DNA of 64,000 bases from Clostridiales bacterium (lineage in GTDB: Bacteria > Bacillota > Clostridia > Oscillospirales > Acutalibacteraceae). The stretch's first letter is position 1. The number at the start of each line of letters is the position of its first letter. The position numbers and the translations under genes are program-made. Location of the stretch: contig JAAWQC010000003.1 of the NCBI GenBank assembly GCA_022800315.1, positions 1 to 64,000 on the forward strand, written 5' to 3'. The notes beneath the pieces were generated by a model that was given only the letters and a program-made list of their open reading frames with translations, did not search any database and was not told the origin of the DNA. This document shows, in pieces, positions 11,878 to 52,427 of the stretch.

Positions 11878-13515
<1,638 letters not shown>

Positions 13516-24605: not shown

Positions 24606-26561
24606 ATGATGAAAAAAGTGTCCAGCGCCCTGCTGGCGCTCCTCCTCCTGCTGTCCCTGACCCTCACCGGCACCTTCGCCTGGTCCGATTTTACCCAGCG
24701 CAAGACGAACGAGATGGGCGGTACCATCGACGCCTATAACGTCCAGCTGGTCAAGCGGGGCATGGACACCGCCACCCCGCTGGCCAACACCTACTTCGAC
24801 CTGTACAGCCGGAAGGACGGCAGGGAAGAAAAGCTGGACGGCGTGTACGTCACCGACCAGTTCGGCGCCATCGAGCTGGGCGGCCTGCCCGCCGGGGACT
24901 ACCTGTTCCGGGAGGTAAATCCCCCCTACGGCTACAATCTCGACCTGGACACCCGCAACCACCCCTTCACCTTGAGCGAGGACACGGTGGACGAGCACCA
25001 GTACGTCTACGTCACCGCGGTGAACAGCCGCCGCTACGGCGACCTCACGGTGCGGAAAACGGTGGTCAACGCCGACGGCTCCCCCCTCACCGACGAGCAG
25101 AAGGAACAGCTCTTCACCTTCACCATCGTGATCGAGGGCGACGGCGTTCAGGAGCTGGGGGACGGCGGCTTCGGCTGGTCGCTGGACGGGGTGGACCAGC
25201 CCGCCAACCTGCCGAACACCGCCACCATCCAGCTGAAACACGGGCAGCAGGCGGTGATCAGGCACATCCCCGCCGGGGCCCACTACACCGTCACCGAGAC
25301 CCCGGCGGCGGACACCATCGTCACCGGCGAAAACCACAGCGGTACCCTGCTCGAGGGCGGGGCGCAGGCCTCCTTTATCAACACCTACGGCAGGGAACCG
25401 GAGCCTGGCACCCTCACCGTGAAGAAACAGGTCACCGGCGAAGGCGCCGACCCGACCCGCAAGTTCGATATGACCGTCACCATCGACGGCGTCCCGCACC
25501 GCATCGCGCTGGCAGGCGGGGAAGTAGCCGTCTTTGCCGATCTTCCCGCCGGCGCGTACTATGAGGTAAAAGAGGACGACCTCTACGGCACCGGCTACAT
25601 ACAGGGGGGGCTGACCGACGGCTTCGGCACCATCGACGGCGACAAGACCGCCCTGGTCACCAACACCTTTGTGGGCACCGTCATGACCGAGATACGGGGC
25701 CAGAAAACCTGGGAGCACGGTGACAACCCCGAGGCCAGCCGCCCCGCCCACATCGTCGTCCAGCTGAAATGCGGCGAGGCCGTCATGGCGCAGAAGACGG
25801 TGACCGCCGCCGACGGCTGGTCCTACGCCTTCAACGCACCCAAGTACGATGCGGAGGCAAACGAGGTGGCGTACAGCATCGCGGAACTGCCGGTGCCGAA
25901 CTACGCCGCCACCGTGGACGGCTATAACCTGCACAACACCTACGTGCCCCCGGCGGTCACTACCACCTCCGGCACCGGCTCCGCCGCCTCTTCGACCGAT
26001 TCCACAACGACCACCACGAATACTGCGACAAGTTCCACCGTCTCCACAACGACTGATCCTAACGAGACAACAACCAGCGATCCTTCGACGAACACTTCTG
26101 GTTCGTCGGCGACCACTACCGGTTCCTCGGCCACAACATCCACTGATCCCTCGACGAACACTGCCGGTTCCTCGGCCACAACATCCACTGATCCCTCGAC
26201 GAACACTGCCGGTTCCTCGGCCACAACATCCACTGATCCTGACGGGACGACGACCACCAACGATTTCAACTTTACCATCACCCTGCATCCCACCCGGCCC
26301 ACCGACCCTGATTCCTTCCCGGTGGGGGGCGGCACGGCGGGCGGGCCGGATGGAAGCGGTAACGACGGCGGCGCAAACGGGCAGAACCCGCCGAAGACGG
26401 GCGACACCTTCTTCGACCCCGCCTGTCTCATCCACCCGGCGCTTCTCATCCTGATCATTCTGCTGGGCGGCTACACCGTCATCCGCCTGGTTATCAACCG
26501 ACGGAAGGCGGAGGACATTCAGCTCCAGACCATCCCAACAGAGGAGGATAACGAACAATGA
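24606..26561 (+). CDS. SpaA/Cna-B-type pilin-like protein with sorting signal
   Basis: A 651-residue surface protein. The signal ends in TLTGTFAWSDFTQ, the same SipW-style motif as the two matrix proteins, followed by a SpaA/prealbumin-type Cna-B domain (about 35-130: YFDLYSRKDGREEKLDGVYV, AGDYLFREVNPPYGYNLD). Two FctA-like repeat domains (about 140-360; TFTIVIEGDGV, KFDMTVTIDGV) and another Cna-B domain (about 362-450: RGQKTWEHGDNPEA) follow. A Ser/Thr-rich stalk (about 450-560) leads to the sortase signal NPPKTG (594-599), a membrane helix and a basic tail. The start is ATG 24606 after AAAGGAGA. Sortase-polymerised, isopeptide-crosslinked pili or a stalked anchor are likely; no sortase is in the window. 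The combination of SipW-type signal with a sorting signal is unusual. Confidence 0.9.
   Translation: MMKKVSSALLALLLLLSLTLTGTFAWSDFTQRKTNEMGGTIDAYNVQLVKRGMDTATPLANTYFDLYSRKDGREEKLDGVYVTDQFGAIELGGLPAGDYLFREVNPPYGYNLDLDTRNHPFTLSEDTVDEHQYVYVTAVNSRRYGDLTVRKTVVNADGSPLTDEQKEQLFTFTIVIEGDGVQELGDGGFGWSLDGVDQPANLPNTATIQLKHGQQAVIRHIPAGAHYTVTETPAADTIVTGENHSGTLLEGGAQASFINTYGREPEPGTLTVKKQVTGEGADPTRKFDMTVTIDGVPHRIALAGGEVAVFADLPAGAYYEVKEDDLYGTGYIQGGLTDGFGTIDGDKTALVTNTFVGTVMTEIRGQKTWEHGDNPEASRPAHIVVQLKCGEAVMAQKTVTAADGWSYAFNAPKYDAEANEVAYSIAELPVPNYAATVDGYNLHNTYVPPAVTTTSGTGSAASSTDSTTTTTNTATSSTVSTTTDPNETTTSDPSTNTSGSSATTTGSSATTSTDPSTNTAGSSATTSTDPSTNTAGSSATTSTDPDGTTTTNDFNFTITLHPTRPTDPDSFPVGGGTAGGPDGSGNDGGANGQNPPKTGDTFFDPACLIHPALLILIILLGGYTVIRLVINRRKAEDIQLQTIPTEEDNEQ
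26121..26240 (+). repeat. 45-bp tandem repeat in the pilin stalk
   Basis: The unit begins GGTTCCTCGGCCACAACATC and recurs with a period of exactly 45 bases at 26121, 26166 and 26211 (the last partial). Degenerate copies lie just upstream. It encodes a 15-residue Ser/Thr-rich unit (GSSATTSTDPSTNTA). Confidence 0.92.
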
Positions 26562-32604: not shown

Positions 32605-32649
32605 AGGAGGGAACGCATAAGGAACCATGACATCCTTATGCGTCCCTCT
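32605..32649 (+). terminator. Long hairpin, possible terminator
   Basis: A stem AGGAGGGAACGCATAAGGA against TCCTTATGCGTCCCTCT, with a nine-base loop. It is followed by CTTCTTCCTG, a poor T run. Confidence 0.5.
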
Positions 32650-32727
32650 TCTTCCTGTATTTTCCGCCTCTTTTTGGGGAAAATACCCTGTATTGCTTCT
32701 AATTTACAGTACAGGGTGGTAGTAAAC

Positions 32728-35700
32728 ATGTCCGCAACCAACGAAAAACCCTTTGAGAACGCCCGGACGGCGGTGCAGGGGGACGACGCCTATTATCAGG
32801 CGCTGGCCCGCACCCATATCGCCGAGCCATATGACCCCGCCTCCCTCCGCCCGCTGCGGCGGGAGGTGAAGCGATGCCTGCGCGCCCTGCGCCGGGCCTA
32901 TGAGCATTTGCTGGAAACCGGCGCGAAAGAGAAAAAAGACCAGCCGCTGGCGGGCACCGCCCGGGAATGGCTGCTGGATAACTACCACCTGCTGGCGCGG
33001 GAGGGGGAAGGGGTGCTGGACGGTCTGAAAACTGCCGACCGCCTGCCCGCTGACGACAAGCGCCCGGCGGTATTCCGCCTGTGCCTCAGGCTGGCGGAGG
33101 AAAAGGGCGTCCCCACCGAAGAAGGGTGGGACGCTCTGGTGGAGGCCGCCCAGCAGCACCGCCCCCTGACCGTGTTCGAGCTGGACCAGTTCTCCCTGTG
33201 CCTGCGGGCCGCCCTCCTGGTACTGGCGGCGAAGGCCTGCCGACCCGCCGACGGGGAACGGGCGCTGGAGGGCGACGAGGCGGTACGCGCCCTGTCCCAG
33301 GCAGTAAACGGCCTGCGCACGGCGGCGGATATCGATTTTGCCGGTCTGACCGAGCGTCACAGCATCGTGGAGCGCATTCTGGAAGGGGACCCGTCTGGGG
33401 TCTACCCCCATATGGACGAGCAGTCCCGCGCCGACTACCGCCGCCGTGTGGCCCTGCTGGCGCAAAGGGAAGAAAAAAGCGAGGCCACGGTGGCCGCTGC
33501 CCTGGTTGAGAAGGCGGAGCAGGCCGCCGCGAGCCTGCCCGACAGCGATCACACCCCGCGGGAGTGCCATGTGGGCGCCTGGCTCCCCGACGACCGCGAA
33601 AAACGGCGGCGACGGGGACGAGTGCTGCTGATCACCGAGGCCCTCCTGCCCGCCGCCGTCTCCATCGCGCTGGCGGCGATCCTGCGCGCCCCTGTGTCGG
33701 CCCTGCTCTTTTACCTGCCGCTGTGGGAAATCCTGCGCCCCCTGCTGGAGCACTTCGCCCTCAAGCGGACGCCGCCCCTGCGGCTGCCCCGCCTCGAGCT
33801 GAACGGGGTCGTCCCCGAAGAGGGCCGCACAGTCATCGCCGTGTCCGCCCTGCTCCCCCCCGCCGCCAAGGCAAAGGAGACCGCTGTCCATCTGGCCCGC
33901 CTGTACAATGCCAACGGGCAGGGTGCGGTGCAGGTCTGCCTGCTGGCTGACCTGCGGGGGGCGGACTACCCCACCCTGCCCCGCGACACCGCCGACATCG
34001 CCGCCATGGAGCGGGAAATCCGGCGGCTCAACCGGCAGACGGATAACGCCTTCGTCCTGGCGGTACGACCGCGGGAATACAGCGAGACCATGCATACCTA
34101 TACGGGGCGGGAACGCAAGCGGGGCGCCATTGCCGAGCTGACCCGCCTGATCCGCGGCGGGGAGAACCGCTTCCTGTCTTTCATGGGCGACGAAAAAAAC
34201 CTGCGCCGCGCCCGCTATCTGATCGCGCTGGACGCGGACACCGGCATGCTGATGGACACGGCGGCGCGGCTGGTGGGCACTGCTCTCCATCCCCTGAACC
34301 GTCCGGTGTGGGACGAAAAAAGCGGCCGTGTTTCCAAGGGCTACGGCGTGCTGACCCCCCGCATGACCCCCGAGCTGCGCAGCGCGGGCAAAACTCCGTT
34401 TTCCTCCGCCATGGCGGGGGCGGGCGGGGTCACCCCCTACGATGTGCCGGCGGGAGAACTGTATATGGACTGCTTCGCCTCCGGCATTTTCGCCGGCAAG
34501 GGGCTGATCGACCTGCGCGCCTTCAGCCGTACGCTGGAGACCCCCTTCCCCCCCGAACAGGTGCTGAGCCACGACATCCTGGAGGGCTGCCTGCTCCGCG
34601 CCGGCATGGTGGGGGATGTGGAGATGGCCGACGGCGTCCCCTCCGGCATGGGGGGCTGGCTGTCCCGTCTGCACCGCTGGATACGGGGAGACTGGCAGAA
34701 TGCCCCCTTCATTTTCAATCATACCCTGCCGCTGCGCCGGCTGGATAAATGGAAGCTTCTGGATAACCTGCGCCGCTCCCTCACCCCCGCCGCCGCCATG
34801 CTGTGCCTGCTGCTGACCCCGCTGTTCCCCGCCCCGGCGGGACAGCTGCTGGCGGTGGCGGCCCTGCTCTCCGTCATGGCGGGCGAGCTGCTGGCTGCCC
34901 TGCTCTCCCTGATCCACGGGGGGATGCTGACCCTGACCGGCCAGTATTATTCCCGCACCCTGCCACGGGCGCTGGGCGCCTTCACACGGGCCGCCTATCA
35001 GCTGGTCATGCTGCCCGCCCAGGCGTGGACCGGCGTGGACGCGGCCGCCCGCGCCCTGTGGCGGCTGAAAACCCGACGCCGCCTGCTCCAGTGGGTGACG
35101 GCCGCGGATTCGGAGGGCGGCCGCAATACGATTGGTCTGGCCTTCCGCCGGTTTTGGTACACCCTGCCGGCGGCGGCATTTCTCATCCTGCTGGGGAACG
35201 GGCTGACCCGGCTGGCGGGCCTGCTGTTCCTCCTGCTCATCCCGCTGGCGGCCCTGTCCGGCCGGTCGGCCAAGGAGCCGGGGCGCCGTACCCTATCCCC
35301 CGCCGAAAAGGAGCGGGTCAGCGCCTACGCCGCCGCCATGTGGCGGTTCTATGAGGAGCTCTGCGGGGCGGAGGACCACTATCTCCCCCCCGACAATCTA
35401 CAGGAATCGCCGGTCTGGCGGGTGGCCCATCGGACCTCACCCACCAATATCGGCATGTATCTGCTGTGCATCGCGGCGGCGCGGGACTTCGGTTTTATCG
35501 ACAACGAGGGGTTCCTGCTGCGGGTGGGGCGCACGGTGAAAACACTGGAGCGGCTGGATAAATGGAAGGGCAACCTCTACAACTGGTACGACACCCGCAC
35601 CCTGCGCCCCCTGTCCCCCCGGTATATCTCCACCGTGGACAGCGGCAATCTGGCCTGCTGCCTGGTGGCCCTGCGGCAGGCGGTGCTGGAGCTGTCCGAC

Positions 35701-38700
35701 GGCAGCGACGGTCCTGCCGCCCGCCTGGCGGAACGCATCCGCACCCTCAACGAACAGCTGGACCTCACCCCCCTGTACAACCCCCGGCGGGCGCTGTTCC
35801 ACATCGGACTGGACCCCGATACCGGGGAGGTCAGCCCCTCCTATTACGATCTGCTGATGAGCGAGAGCCGCCTCACCGGCTATTTCGCCATCGCCACCCG
35901 CGCCGTGCCGAAAAAGCACTGGGGCGCGCTGGGGCGCACCCTCGCCCGCTCGGGCGGATATGTGGGCCCGGTGTCCTGGACCGGCACCATGTTCGAATTC
36001 TTCATGCCCCGCCTGCTGCTGAGCGCGCAGGAGGGGTCCATGAGCTACGAAGCGCTGCGCTTCTGCCTCCACTGCCAGCGGCGGCGGCCACCCCGCGGAG
36101 TGCCGTGGGGCATCAGCGAAAGCGGCTTTTACGCCTTCGACAGCAACCTCAGCTACCAGTATAAGGCCCACGGCGTCCCCCGCCTCGCCCTCAAGCGGGG
36201 AATGGGCAGCGAGCTGGTAATCTCCCCCTACTCCACCTTCCTGACCCTGACCACCGACCCGGAGGCCGCCCTGCGCAACCTGTCCCGGCTGGAGCGGCGG
36301 GGCATGACCGGCCGCTGCGGCTTTTATGAGGCGGCGGATTTCACCCCGGGGCGGGCCGCCCGCGGCGGCTACTCGGTGGTGCGCAGCTATATGGCCCATC
36401 ACGTGGGGATGAGCATGGTCGCCTGCGCCAACGCGGCGATGGACGACCGGTTCGTCCGCCGCTTCCTCCGCGACCCCGACATGGCACGGGCGGAGGAGCT
36501 GCTGTTCGAACGGGCGCCGGAGAGCGGAGCCGTCTTCAGCGGCGCGCAGGAACGGCCGGTACCCGAACGGCCGGGACGCTCCCGCCCCACGGCGGAGGAA
36601 ATCCCGGTTATCAACCCCCGCACCCCCCGCATGCACCTGCTGTCGGGAAGCGAATGGTCTTTGGCCATCACCGACGCCGGCGCGGGCATCTCGGTGTGCC
36701 GGGGGCTGGATATCCATATGCGCAGCGGCGACCTGCTCCGCCGTCCCCAGGGCATTTACACGGTGGTGGACGGCGGCGAGGGGGCTTTTTCGATTACGCG
36801 GGCCCCTGATTACAGCGACAGCGAAACAAACCGCCGGGCGGAATTCGGGGAGGGGTACGCCTCCTTTTACGCCGACCGCGGCTCGCTGGAAACCGGCCTG
36901 CGGGTGACGGTGCATCCCCGCCTGCCCTGCGAACAGCGGCAGGTGGTGCTGAAAAACAAGGCCACCCATCGGCTGAGAGTGCGTCTGCTGTTCTACTTTG
37001 AACCCTGTCTGGCCCGCAAGGAGGACGCGCAGGCCCATCCCGCCTTCTCCCGTCTGTTCCTGTCGGCTCGGAAAGACGACACGGCCGGGGCCCTCTTCCT
37101 CTCCCGCCGGGGACGGGAAGGGGAACCGCCGGTGTGTCTGGCGGCCGGCCTCATCGACGGCGGCGATTTTGAATACGAGGCCTCCCGGGAAGCCCTGCTC
37201 ACCCGGCCGGAGGGCATCGTCTCCCTGGTGGCGGGGGCCGGCAGGCCCTTCTCCAGCCGGGGGCGGGGCATCCCCGACGGCGCGGCGGCCATCCGGCTGA
37301 CGGTGGAGCTTCCTGCCCGCTCCCAGCGGGTGGTGACCCTGGCGCTGGCCGCCGCCCCCACCGAGAGCGAGGCCGCCACCCGCCTGATCGAAATCCGCCG
37401 GGAGGGCGCCCTGACCGCCGACCGGGCGGCCCGCAGCCCCTTCGGCGGGGTGGAGGCCCAACTGGCGGCCCACATCCTGCCCGACCTCTTCTACCCGCCC
37501 CGCATGTCGCGGGAATGGGCGGCGGCCGCGCGGGAAAATACCCGGGGCCAAACCGCTTTGTGGGCTCTGGGGGTGTCGGGGGACTTCCCTATCCTGCTCA
37601 TCGAGATCCACAACGCCGCCGACGCCTCCCGCGCGGAGCCGTATATGCGGCTGCACCGTTCCCTGCGCCTGGGCGGCGTGACCACCGAGCTGGTCATCGC
37701 CTTCCACGAGGGCGGTGACTATGACTCCCCCGTGCTGGACGGCATTCGGGAGGCGGCCCGCTCCGCCCGCTGTGACGGTATGCTGGGCGCCCGGGGCGGT
37801 ATCCATCCGGTCAATCTGGCCGTCCACGGGGAAGAGGCCCTCGCCCTGCTGACCGCGGTATGCGCCCACAACGGCGTCCGCGATTTGCAGCGGGCGGGCC
37901 CGCCCCCCATCGATTACGCCCCTGTTCAAATACTTCCTGTTGATAAAATAAATCAAGATACAAATGGTAAGCAGAAAGGGCTGGCCATCCACGGCGGACG
38001 GTTTACCGATGACGGCTTTGTTTTCACCGGTGACGCGCCCCGTCTGCCCTGGTGCCACGTGCTGGCGAATCCCACCTTCGGCACGCTGGTATCCGACCGG
38101 GCCGCGGGCTTCACCTGGGCGATCAACGCCCGGGAGAACCGGCTGACCCCCTGGTATAACGACACCGCCTCGGATAATCGGGGGGAAATGCTCCTGCTGC
38201 GGATTAACGGGGTGGTCTACGACGCTCTCTGGGGGGCGCGGGCCACCTTCGGGGAGGGCTTCGCCCGGTATGAGGGGCAGGCAGGCCCCCTGCGGATACG
38301 CACCACCATCCGGGTCCCCCGGCGGGGCATGATGAAACTCATCGAAGTGGAGCTGGAAAACACAGAAAGAAAGGGCTCCGGCTCTGCCGGCGGAAAAGAG
38401 CCATCGGAGGGAAAAGATATACAAATCGTATACTATACAGAACCCGTACTGGGAGTAAATCGTGATACTGCCCGCCATGTGGCCGCCCGGTGGGAAAACG
38501 GGGCGCTGTACCTCCACAACCCCTTCGCGGCGGTGAGCGGTGGGATGATCCTGACCGCCCTGGGCGGGGCAGAGGACTGCGACTGCGACCGGGGCAGCTT
38601 CCTGTCGGGCAAGTGGGGCACCGGCACCCTCTCTCCCCTGCCCGACCCCTGCGCGGCGGTGCTGGTGCGCCGCCGCCTGCCTCCCCGCCGAAAGGAAAAG

Positions 38701-40437
38701 GTCACCTTTGTCCTGGGCTTTGCCGCCCATGAAGCGGCGGCCCGCCGCCTGCCCGCACTTGCCGAGGAGCTGGCGGCCGAAACCGCACCCGCCGCTCCGA
38801 AGATCACCACCCCTGACAAGGCGCTGGACGCGCTGTGCCAGTGGCTGCCGCGGCAGGTGGTGGACTGCCGCCTTTACGCCCGCACCGGCTTTTACCAGAG
38901 CGGCGGAGCCTGGGGATTCCGCGACCAGCTGCAGGACTCGCTGGCGGCGCTGTGGGTGGACCCTGTCATCACCCGCCGTCAGATCATGCGCTGCGCCGCC
39001 GCCCAGTTCGAGGAGGGGGACGTACTCCACTGGTGGCACCGCCTGCCGGGGCGGGGACTGCGCGGAGTGCGCACCCGCTGCTCCGACGATATGGCGTGGC
39101 TCCCCTACGCGCTGAGCGAATATGTGGAATTTACCGGTGACGAGGCCCTTCTGGACGTGGGGGTGGGCTGGCTCCGCGGCGACCCGCTGAGGGAGGACGA
39201 GGGGGACCGCTACTTTGAGCCTCCCGCCGTCGAGCAGAAGGATTCCCTCTATGAGCACGGGGTGCGGGCATTGGAGCGCGCCTGTACCAAAGGGGCCCAC
39301 GGCCTGCCCCTTATCGGCAGCGGGGACTGGAACGACGGCTTCAGCCAGATCGGCGCCGAAGGGAAGGGGGAAAGCGTGTGGCTGGGCATGTTCCTGGCCC
39401 TCACCCTGGACCGGTACGCCCTGCTGTCCGAAAGACGGGGGGACGGGCGCCGGGCTGACCTCTTCCGCCAAACGGCGAAGGATTACCGGGCGGCGGCGGA
39501 GGCCTGCTTCGACGGCGACCGCTACCTGCGGGCGTTCTTCGACGACGGCTCCTCACTGGGCAAGCGGTGCGACCCCGCCTGCGCGCTGGACAGCCTGACC
39601 CAGTCCTTCGCCGTGCTGGCGGGGCTGGACCCGCAGCACGCCGGCGTCGCACTGGACACCGCGCGGCGGGAACTGGTGGATGAGGAGCACGGTGTGATCC
39701 GGCTCTTCACCCCGCCCTTCGACCATCCTGAAAAACCGGTGGGGTATATCGCCGCCTATCCCCCCGGTGTGCGGGAAAACGGCGGACAGTATACCCACGC
39801 CGCCGCCTGGCTGGCTATCGCCTTCCTGAAAAGCGGGCGGGCGGAGGAAGGCGCCCGACTGCTTCACCTGCTCAACCCGGTGAACAAGTACGCCGTGACA
39901 GGACAGGAGGACGGGAAAAATTCAGTGGGAGTCTCTCAATCAGACGGAAGCACACGTACACGCTATGGCGGCGAACCCATCGCCGAATCCGCCCTCCCGG
40001 CGGATTCAGCGCGAAAGAACCCCGAAACGGGCTTCTTTCTGGAGAGAGTCTCTCATTCAGACGGAAGTACACGTACACGCTATGGCGGCGAACCCTATGT
40101 ATTAGCCGGGGATGTCTACGCCAACGGGGAATGTCCCGGCCGGGTGGGCTGGACCTGGTATACCGGGTCAGCAGGCTGGCTGTACACCGCCGTTTTGCGC
40201 TGTCTGCTGGGGCTTCAGCCTCGCGGCGACCGGCTGCTGCTCACCCCCTGCCTGCCCGCCGAGTGGGACGGCTATACACTGGAAATCACCCTGCGGGGGA
40301 CCCGTCTCTATCTCACGGCAAAACGGGACGCCGAAACCGCATCCGGAACAGGACCCCATCTCCAGGTGGACGGCTGCGCCGCTGAAAGTATCCCGCTGGA
40401 CGGCGGCGAGCACCGGGCGACCTGCTTCTTTTCCTAG
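32728..40437 (+). CDS. Cyclic glucan synthase-like multidomain protein (GT84/GH94)
   Basis: A 2569-residue NdvB-type protein. In order: N-terminal soluble part (1-295); membrane helices (about 299-345); GT84-like transferase (about 355-650; ALDADTGMLMDTAARL, YMDCFASGIFAGKGLID, RLHRWIRGDWQ); more membrane helices (670-850); a glycoamylase-like domain (about 950-1245; ISESGFYAFDSNLSYQYKAH, YMAHHVGMSM); two GH94 supersandwich domains (about 1300-1590 and 1760-2010); and a C-terminal (alpha/alpha)6 GH94 catalytic domain with SGDWNDG near residue 2197. Such proteins make, trim and cyclise beta-glucans (beta-1,2 in Brucella/Rhizobium) from UDP-glucose; the linkage here is not certain. The ATG at 32728 has AGGGTGG. 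Odd: local insertions near residues 1730-1750, 1880-1915 and 2400-2455 with different base composition. Confidence 0.9.
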   Translation: MSATNEKPFENARTAVQGDDAYYQALARTHIAEPYDPASLRPLRREVKRCLRALRRAYEHLLETGAKEKKDQPLAGTAREWLLDNYHLLAREGEGVLDGLKTADRLPADDKRPAVFRLCLRLAEEKGVPTEEGWDALVEAAQQHRPLTVFELDQFSLCLRAALLVLAAKACRPADGERALEGDEAVRALSQAVNGLRTAADIDFAGLTERHSIVERILEGDPSGVYPHMDEQSRADYRRRVALLAQREEKSEATVAAALVEKAEQAAASLPDSDHTPRECHVGAWLPDDREKRRRRGRVLLITEALLPAAVSIALAAILRAPVSALLFYLPLWEILRPLLEHFALKRTPPLRLPRLELNGVVPEEGRTVIAVSALLPPAAKAKETAVHLARLYNANGQGAVQVCLLADLRGADYPTLPRDTADIAAMEREIRRLNRQTDNAFVLAVRPREYSETMHTYTGRERKRGAIAELTRLIRGGENRFLSFMGDEKNLRRARYLIALDADTGMLMDTAARLVGTALHPLNRPVWDEKSGRVSKGYGVLTPRMTPELRSAGKTPFSSAMAGAGGVTPYDVPAGELYMDCFASGIFAGKGLIDLRAFSRTLETPFPPEQVLSHDILEGCLLRAGMVGDVEMADGVPSGMGGWLSRLHRWIRGDWQNAPFIFNHTLPLRRLDKWKLLDNLRRSLTPAAAMLCLLLTPLFPAPAGQLLAVAALLSVMAGELLAALLSLIHGGMLTLTGQYYSRTLPRALGAFTRAAYQLVMLPAQAWTGVDAAARALWRLKTRRRLLQWVTAADSEGGRNTIGLAFRRFWYTLPAAAFLILLGNGLTRLAGLLFLLLIPLAALSGRSAKEPGRRTLSPAEKERVSAYAAAMWRFYEELCGAEDHYLPPDNLQESPVWRVAHRTSPTNIGMYLLCIAAARDFGFIDNEGFLLRVGRTVKTLERLDKWKGNLYNWYDTRTLRPLSPRYISTVDSGNLACCLVALRQAVLELSDGSDGPAARLAERIRTLNEQLDLTPLYNPRRALFHIGLDPDTGEVSPSYYDLLMSESRLTGYFAIATRAVPKKHWGALGRTLARSGGYVGPVSWTGTMFEFFMPRLLLSAQEGSMSYEALRFCLHCQRRRPPRGVPWGISESGFYAFDSNLSYQYKAHGVPRLALKRGMGSELVISPYSTFLTLTTDPEAALRNLSRLERRGMTGRCGFYEAADFTPGRAARGGYSVVRSYMAHHVGMSMVACANAAMDDRFVRRFLRDPDMARAEELLFERAPESGAVFSGAQERPVPERPGRSRPTAEEIPVINPRTPRMHLLSGSEWSLAITDAGAGISVCRGLDIHMRSGDLLRRPQGIYTVVDGGEGAFSITRAPDYSDSETNRRAEFGEGYASFYADRGSLETGLRVTVHPRLPCEQRQVVLKNKATHRLRVRLLFYFEPCLARKEDAQAHPAFSRLFLSARKDDTAGALFLSRRGREGEPPVCLAAGLIDGGDFEYEASREALLTRPEGIVSLVAGAGRPFSSRGRGIPDGAAAIRLTVELPARSQRVVTLALAAAPTESEAATRLIEIRREGALTADRAARSPFGGVEAQLAAHILPDLFYPPRMSREWAAAARENTRGQTALWALGVSGDFPILLIEIHNAADASRAEPYMRLHRSLRLGGVTTELVIAFHEGGDYDSPVLDGIREAARSARCDGMLGARGGIHPVNLAVHGEEALALLTAVCAHNGVRDLQRAGPPPIDYAPVQILPVDKINQDTNGKQKGLAIHGGRFTDDGFVFTGDAPRLPWCHVLANPTFGTLVSDRAAGFTWAINARENRLTPWYNDTASDNRGEMLLLRINGVVYDALWGARATFGEGFARYEGQAGPLRIRTTIRVPRRGMMKLIEVELENTERKGSGSAGGKEPSEGKDIQIVYYTEPVLGVNRDTARHVAARWENGALYLHNPFAAVSGGMILTALGGAEDCDCDRGSFLSGKWGTGTLSPLPDPCAAVLVRRRLPPRRKEKVTFVLGFAAHEAAARRLPALAEELAAETAPAAPKITTPDKALDALCQWLPRQVVDCRLYARTGFYQSGGAWGFRDQLQDSLAALWVDPVITRRQIMRCAAAQFEEGDVLHWWHRLPGRGLRGVRTRCSDDMAWLPYALSEYVEFTGDEALLDVGVGWLRGDPLREDEGDRYFEPPAVEQKDSLYEHGVRALERACTKGAHGLPLIGSGDWNDGFSQIGAEGKGESVWLGMFLALTLDRYALLSERRGDGRRADLFRQTAKDYRAAAEACFDGDRYLRAFFDDGSSLGKRCDPACALDSLTQSFAVLAGLDPQHAGVALDTARRELVDEEHGVIRLFTPPFDHPEKPVGYIAAYPPGVRENGGQYTHAAAWLAIAFLKSGRAEEGARLLHLLNPVNKYAVTGQEDGKNSVGVSQSDGSTRTRYGGEPIAESALPADSARKNPETGFFLERVSHSDGSTRTRYGGEPYVLAGDVYANGECPGRVGWTWYTGSAGWLYTAVLRCLLGLQPRGDRLLLTPCLPAEWDGYTLEITLRGTRLYLTAKRDAETASGTGPHLQVDGCAAESIPLDGGEHRATCFFS
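39929..40095 (+). repeat. In-frame 50-bp direct repeats inside the GH94 gene
   Basis: Two copies of a 50-base sequence (39929-39978 and 40046-40095; starting GAGTCTCTCA, ending CGGCGAACCC) differ at two positions and are 117 bases apart, a multiple of three. Between them lie GAATCCGCC/GGCGGATTC and AAAGAACCCCG/CGGGCTTCTTT palindromes. The encoded SDGSTRTRYGGEP is thus present twice. Confidence 0.93.
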
Positions 40438-51923: not shown

Positions 51924-52427
51924 GGCATCACTCCCTTTTCTTTCTATGCTACCAATAATCTCATTAAAATATAATTGCTTTCTATAGGTTAATTATTGAC
52001 TTATAGTAAATGTTATGGTAGTGTATAAAAAGATAGGAATTATTATATAGAGTTTCTTTTTTCTCTGTCTTGCTCCGCAGGCACAGCTTTCTTTACGAAA
52101 AGAAAGCTGTGGGAAAGAATCGTCAGGGGGAACCTTTCAAACGGGTTCCCCCCTGAACCCCCTCCCCACCATGACCAGAGGCTACGCCTCTGGACTTCTG
52201 CTGGTCAAAAAAAGCAATAATCAAAGGTCGATCAGCCATCTGCGCGGTCAATAACGCGTTCCTTGCGATTATCGGGGGATTCTCAAGGGGGCGCGCTATA
52301 AACTCGTTGGACAACAACCGGCGCGCCTCCTTGAGTCCCTTTTGACTACTTTTCGGCGATTCGAAAAGTAGTCGCCGCGCCGCGCGGGCGCACTGAAAAT
52401 CGAAAACATAAAAACGGTGGTGATCCT
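51924..52427. other. Intergenic DNA with repeat and hairpins
   Basis: AT-rich left part, then repeat copy 2 (52068-52210), a GACTACTTTTC/GAAAAGTAGTC hairpin (about 52345-52374) and GC-rich CGCCGCGCCGCGCG. No gene is supported before the 61-residue Cys-rich gene. Confidence 0.55.
52068..52210 (+). repeat. Dispersed intergenic repeat, copy 2
   Basis: Begins TTGCTCCGCAGGCACAG (with hairpin GCTTTCTTT/AAAGAAAGC), then GGGAAAGA, AACCTTTCAAACGGGTT, GAACCCCCTCCCC, and GACCAGAGGC with a small hairpin and CTGGTC. It matches copy 1 at 32349-32592 (minus) in order and in most of its blocks; copy 1 has an extra middle part. Confidence 0.6.

Follow-up and report, generated by a model that had tools for sequence, protein, structure and literature searches.

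A probable one-off, in-frame expansion of a GH94 loop carrying a duplicated native segment in a Clostridiales glucan-synthase-like protein

Rickettsia palindromic elements (RPEs), which measure about 150 bp and often lie in frame within coding genes (PMC10969869), are among the closest described counterparts of the locus reported here, which shares with them short palindromic DNA, in-frame placement, translation, and an empty site in relatives. RPEs, however, form many-copy families with a shared peptide, whereas the present unit occurs once and has no match. Another counterpart is the class of lineage-specific loop insertions and filler-containing duplications, alike in the duplicated native segment, the unrelated intervening sequence, the kept frame, and the variable linker, although the filler here is unusually hairpin-rich. 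A copy-spacer-copy arrangement, in which a native segment is doubled and unrelated DNA lies between, is the trace of local duplication with filler, and hairpins are able to promote strand switching. The host enzyme has its own counterpart in Cgs/NdvB of Agrobacterium (PDB 8rf9 and 8rf0; PMC10901819), whose homologous GH94 domain shares the motifs that flank the insertion point and lacks the segment inserted in the host protein. The GH94-domain catalytic acid of the Agrobacterium enzyme has only a minor effect on growth, but the domain itself is required (PMC10901819).

The window, the whole stretch of 64,000 nucleotides analysed, encodes on its forward strand a glucan-synthase-like protein of the GT84/GH94 type (32638-40437, predicted start, 2599 amino acids), identified from Pfam domains and PDB matches. 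Pfam domains include the GH94 catalytic domain (1.3e-76), which forms the C-terminal third of the 2599-codon open reading frame, together with GH94 supersandwich, Glycoamylase, and GH65 C-terminal domains, and in the PDB the protein is best matched by structures 8rf9 and 8rf0 of the cyclic beta-1,2-glucan synthase from Agrobacterium. With GH94 catalytic and supersandwich domains and homology to NdvB, the protein is classed by sequence as a putative GT84/GH94 cyclic glucan synthase. Its GDWNDG motif is intact, and D2528 of the Agrobacterium enzyme (PMC10901819) falls in this motif, with the position counted on the 8rf9 alignment.

The first-pass annotation had described about 50 residues added just before the conserved EPYVLAGDVY of the GH94 domain, and comparison with orthologues bears this out. 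Between GQYTH and EPY this protein has 105 residues, where the nearest congener has 54 and 43 relatives recovered by whole-genome searches have 44-66, giving an extra length of 51 residues relative to the nearest congener and about 55 relative to the modal orthologue. At the DNA level, alignments to the two congeners end at 39894/39895 and restart at 40078/40081, so that 183 nt on the forward strand (39895-40077) without similarity to either stand where G002 has 30 nt and G001 has 14 nt. To either side the genes keep their order and the flanking DNA is undisturbed, with identities to G002 of 79.5% and 76%. Similarity ends 34 bases before the first repeat copy begins, and the new DNA therefore starts earlier than the annotated interval of 39929-40095. 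The nearest congener reads NKYA-HSDASGGAWARYGGEPY, which indicates that the repeat ends in the native RYGGEP strand and is otherwise new. The insert is known from one genome of the species, and on these alignments the in-frame insertion of about 50 residues in a length-variable GH94 loop is real.

A further reading is an old feature of the domain family that relatives have lost. As the first-pass annotation recognized, the idea of an insertion would have fallen had all orthologues shared the segment and the unit occurred nowhere else. The somewhat variable length of the loop (44-66 residues) is in keeping with such a history, but the insert is missing from all 43 relatives, from 18 IMG/VR relatives that cover the site, and from the Agrobacterium enzyme, and identity between the two repeat copies (96%) exceeds that of the flanking DNA to the nearest congener (73-80%). 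Ancestral presence is thus already refuted for the relatives examined and retains almost no probability.

At the insertion site, repeat comparison and fold analysis agree with the initial description of two 50-base copies that differ at two positions, start 117 bases (39 codons) apart, and have hairpins between them. Copy 1 occupies 39929-39978 and copy 2 occupies 40046-40095, both on the forward strand and both in frame within the single open reading frame, in the GH94 domain. The 3' part of copy 2 (YGGEP) is the conserved native strand. As had been noted, the translation contains the peptide SDGSTRTRYGGEP twice just before EPYVLAGDVY, into which the second occurrence continues. A 22-base probe from the unit matches only the two copies in the window (chance expectation 0.00). 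The spacer of 67 nt (39979-40045, forward strand) encodes IAESALPADSARKNPETGFFLER and contains hairpins.

Hairpin 1 has 13-nt arms (39981-39993 and 39999-40011) and a 5-nt loop and is followed by hairpin 2 (40013-40039), which reads GAAAGAAcCCCG-AAA-CGGGcTTCTTTC, and by a short palindrome, GAGAGA-G-TCTCTC (40042-40054), which spans the junction of spacer and copy 2 and is paired in the predicted fold. A further hairpin, GGCGA-ACCCA-TCGCC, lies at 39970-39984. The 82 nt from 39979 to 40060 fold with a predicted -38.8 kcal/mol (z = -4.7 against shuffles), the strongest value among 308 positions tested in the host gene, although some 30 positions across the whole window score stronger, many in intergenic DNA. 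Three successive hairpins inside a coding region are unusual in the genome sample. Here and below, genome-wide statements derive from searches, and repeat and hairpin statistics derive from a 457-kb sample of the genome that includes the window.

The palindromic, stably folded nature of the insert, its size of about 153 bases and in-frame placement in a coding gene (as in RPEs of about 150 bp; PMC10969869), its atypical composition, and the precise empty site in congeners are what an RPE-like mobile palindromic element, tolerated as peptide in a loop as a single in-frame copy, would present. Searches for further copies speak against this reading. The whole-genome search that the first-pass annotation had proposed recovered the unit once from its own genome (97.6% complete), where each hairpin, searched as a pattern, likewise gave one site. 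The negative result is meaningful because a comparable search with a dispersed intergenic hairpin repeat of the same genome (window 52076-52375) recovered 20 matches, of which about a dozen were clear copies. The unit was also absent from the congeners, where short matches were chance GC-rich words, and neither 300 genomes of the family nor 391 of the class contained it. Exact patterns, a form of search that would miss diverged copies, had no hit in 84,980 species genomes or in IMG/VR, and plasmid and phage collections gave no match.

At the peptide level, a search of 295 genomes of the order (own genome included) found only the locus itself and the native EPYV strand of orthologues, so that no peptide shared between copies at different loci, as RPE families have, was seen in the own genome and the 294 others. 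The unit lacks bounding terminal inverted repeats, and the combination of terminal inverted repeats and short target-site duplication that marks MITEs was not found, the insert having internal hairpins only and 50-nt direct repeats. Of the initial suggestion of a small mobile palindromic element, the in-frame placement and the internal palindromes hold, but mobility gains no support, as neither a second copy nor bounding terminal inverted repeats were found, and a single copy cannot show mobility. An element of the RPE kind is accordingly judged unlikely. To our knowledge, direct repeats of 50 bases exceed any target-site duplication of bacterial insertion elements. An undescribed palindromic mobile element of this bacterial lineage that integrates in frame with a 50-base target duplication, sampled here in a single copy, is distinctly improbable. 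If other strains had the unit elsewhere, it would represent a rare protein-coding palindrome family outside Rickettsia.

Because the searches placed the unit at no other locus, a one-off in-frame loop expansion is a better reading than a mobile element that spreads. The preferred account, to which we assign a probability of roughly 0.7, is a species-specific, in-frame expansion of the GH94 loop by local duplication with filler DNA. What the 50-base duplication copies is the stretch that runs into the native RYGGEP strand, with 67 unrelated hairpin-forming bases separating the copies. Such a duplication may reflect strand slippage, template switching, or end joining, perhaps assisted by the hairpins; alternatively, the locus may have captured a short piece of foreign or non-coding DNA. 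Some features count against this account. A plain tandem duplication would yield the whole 117-base unit twice, yet just 50 bases are repeated, and slippage alone does not explain three successive hairpins. The source of the spacer was traced neither locally nor distantly, and "filler" is therefore only a label. Candidate inverted or direct copies of the repeat or flanks within it scored no better than shuffles.

In base composition and codon use no other stretch of the host gene is as atypical as the insert (GC3 0.51 vs 0.83), the lowest-CAI stretches of the gene all overlap it, and G+C drops there from about 0.7 to about 0.52-0.57. Such an abrupt change, together with repeats within 170 bases, the untraced spacer, and a draft genome of 74 contigs, could also suggest an assembly or binning artefact in which two real sequences were joined at an in-gene repeat. 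Misjoins seldom preserve the reading frame, and the 183 new bases are open throughout, which makes an artefact very unlikely. The flanks are moreover collinear with the two congeners, and the repeat copies differ at two sites.

The insertion point, aligned to 8rf9, is a short linker running from the end of the NPVN helix to the EPYV strand, and the length of this linker varies across relatives. A weak prediction of the domain structure from 12 sequences (mean pLDDT 56.7) leaves the insert unstructured at low confidence, with residues 427-525, which comprise the insert and the neighbouring strand, below 50. Given the linker site, its variable length, the intact GDWNDG motif, and the minor effect of the catalytic acid in Agrobacterium, a tolerated, neutral loop expansion is the simplest reading. 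The exchange of a few codons for 183 bases would have survived because the frame was kept, no stop arose, and the loop could take up extra residues with the fold undisturbed, and a function for the insert in the cell need not be assumed. The locus offers a clear case of an enzyme that gained about 50 residues in a loop from hairpin-rich, compositionally alien DNA with its frame kept, and two congeners show the empty site precisely.

Other repeats of this genome differ in setting. Rfam gave no match for the insert or for the dispersed repeat at 52076-52375, a hairpin-rich intergenic sequence of about 300 bases to which the insert has no kinship. Clear copies of that repeat are mostly 75-84% identical, many lie at contig ends, and differences in the first stem from copy to copy are compensatory, suggesting that selection acts on a folded RNA or DNA element. 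Among other candidates for the same in-gene layout in the 457 kb, those within open reading frames were low-complexity or tandem arrays and the others were intergenic. One adjacent hairpin pair, in a 500-aa open reading frame for an enzyme that by eye looks MalQ-type, appears to be chance, and another lies in a spurious open reading frame over an intergenic region. The window also contains a 45-base in-frame tandem repeat (26106-26239) in the 3' end region of a 691-aa Cna_B/SpaA-like open reading frame and collagen-like repeats of the Gly-X-Thr type within an open reading frame (12379-12915). Elsewhere in the genome, outside called open reading frames, direct repeats of 98 bases with 91-base spacing (L086, 13294-13482) and of 60 bases with 94-base spacing (L078, 1417-1570) both occur with hairpins.
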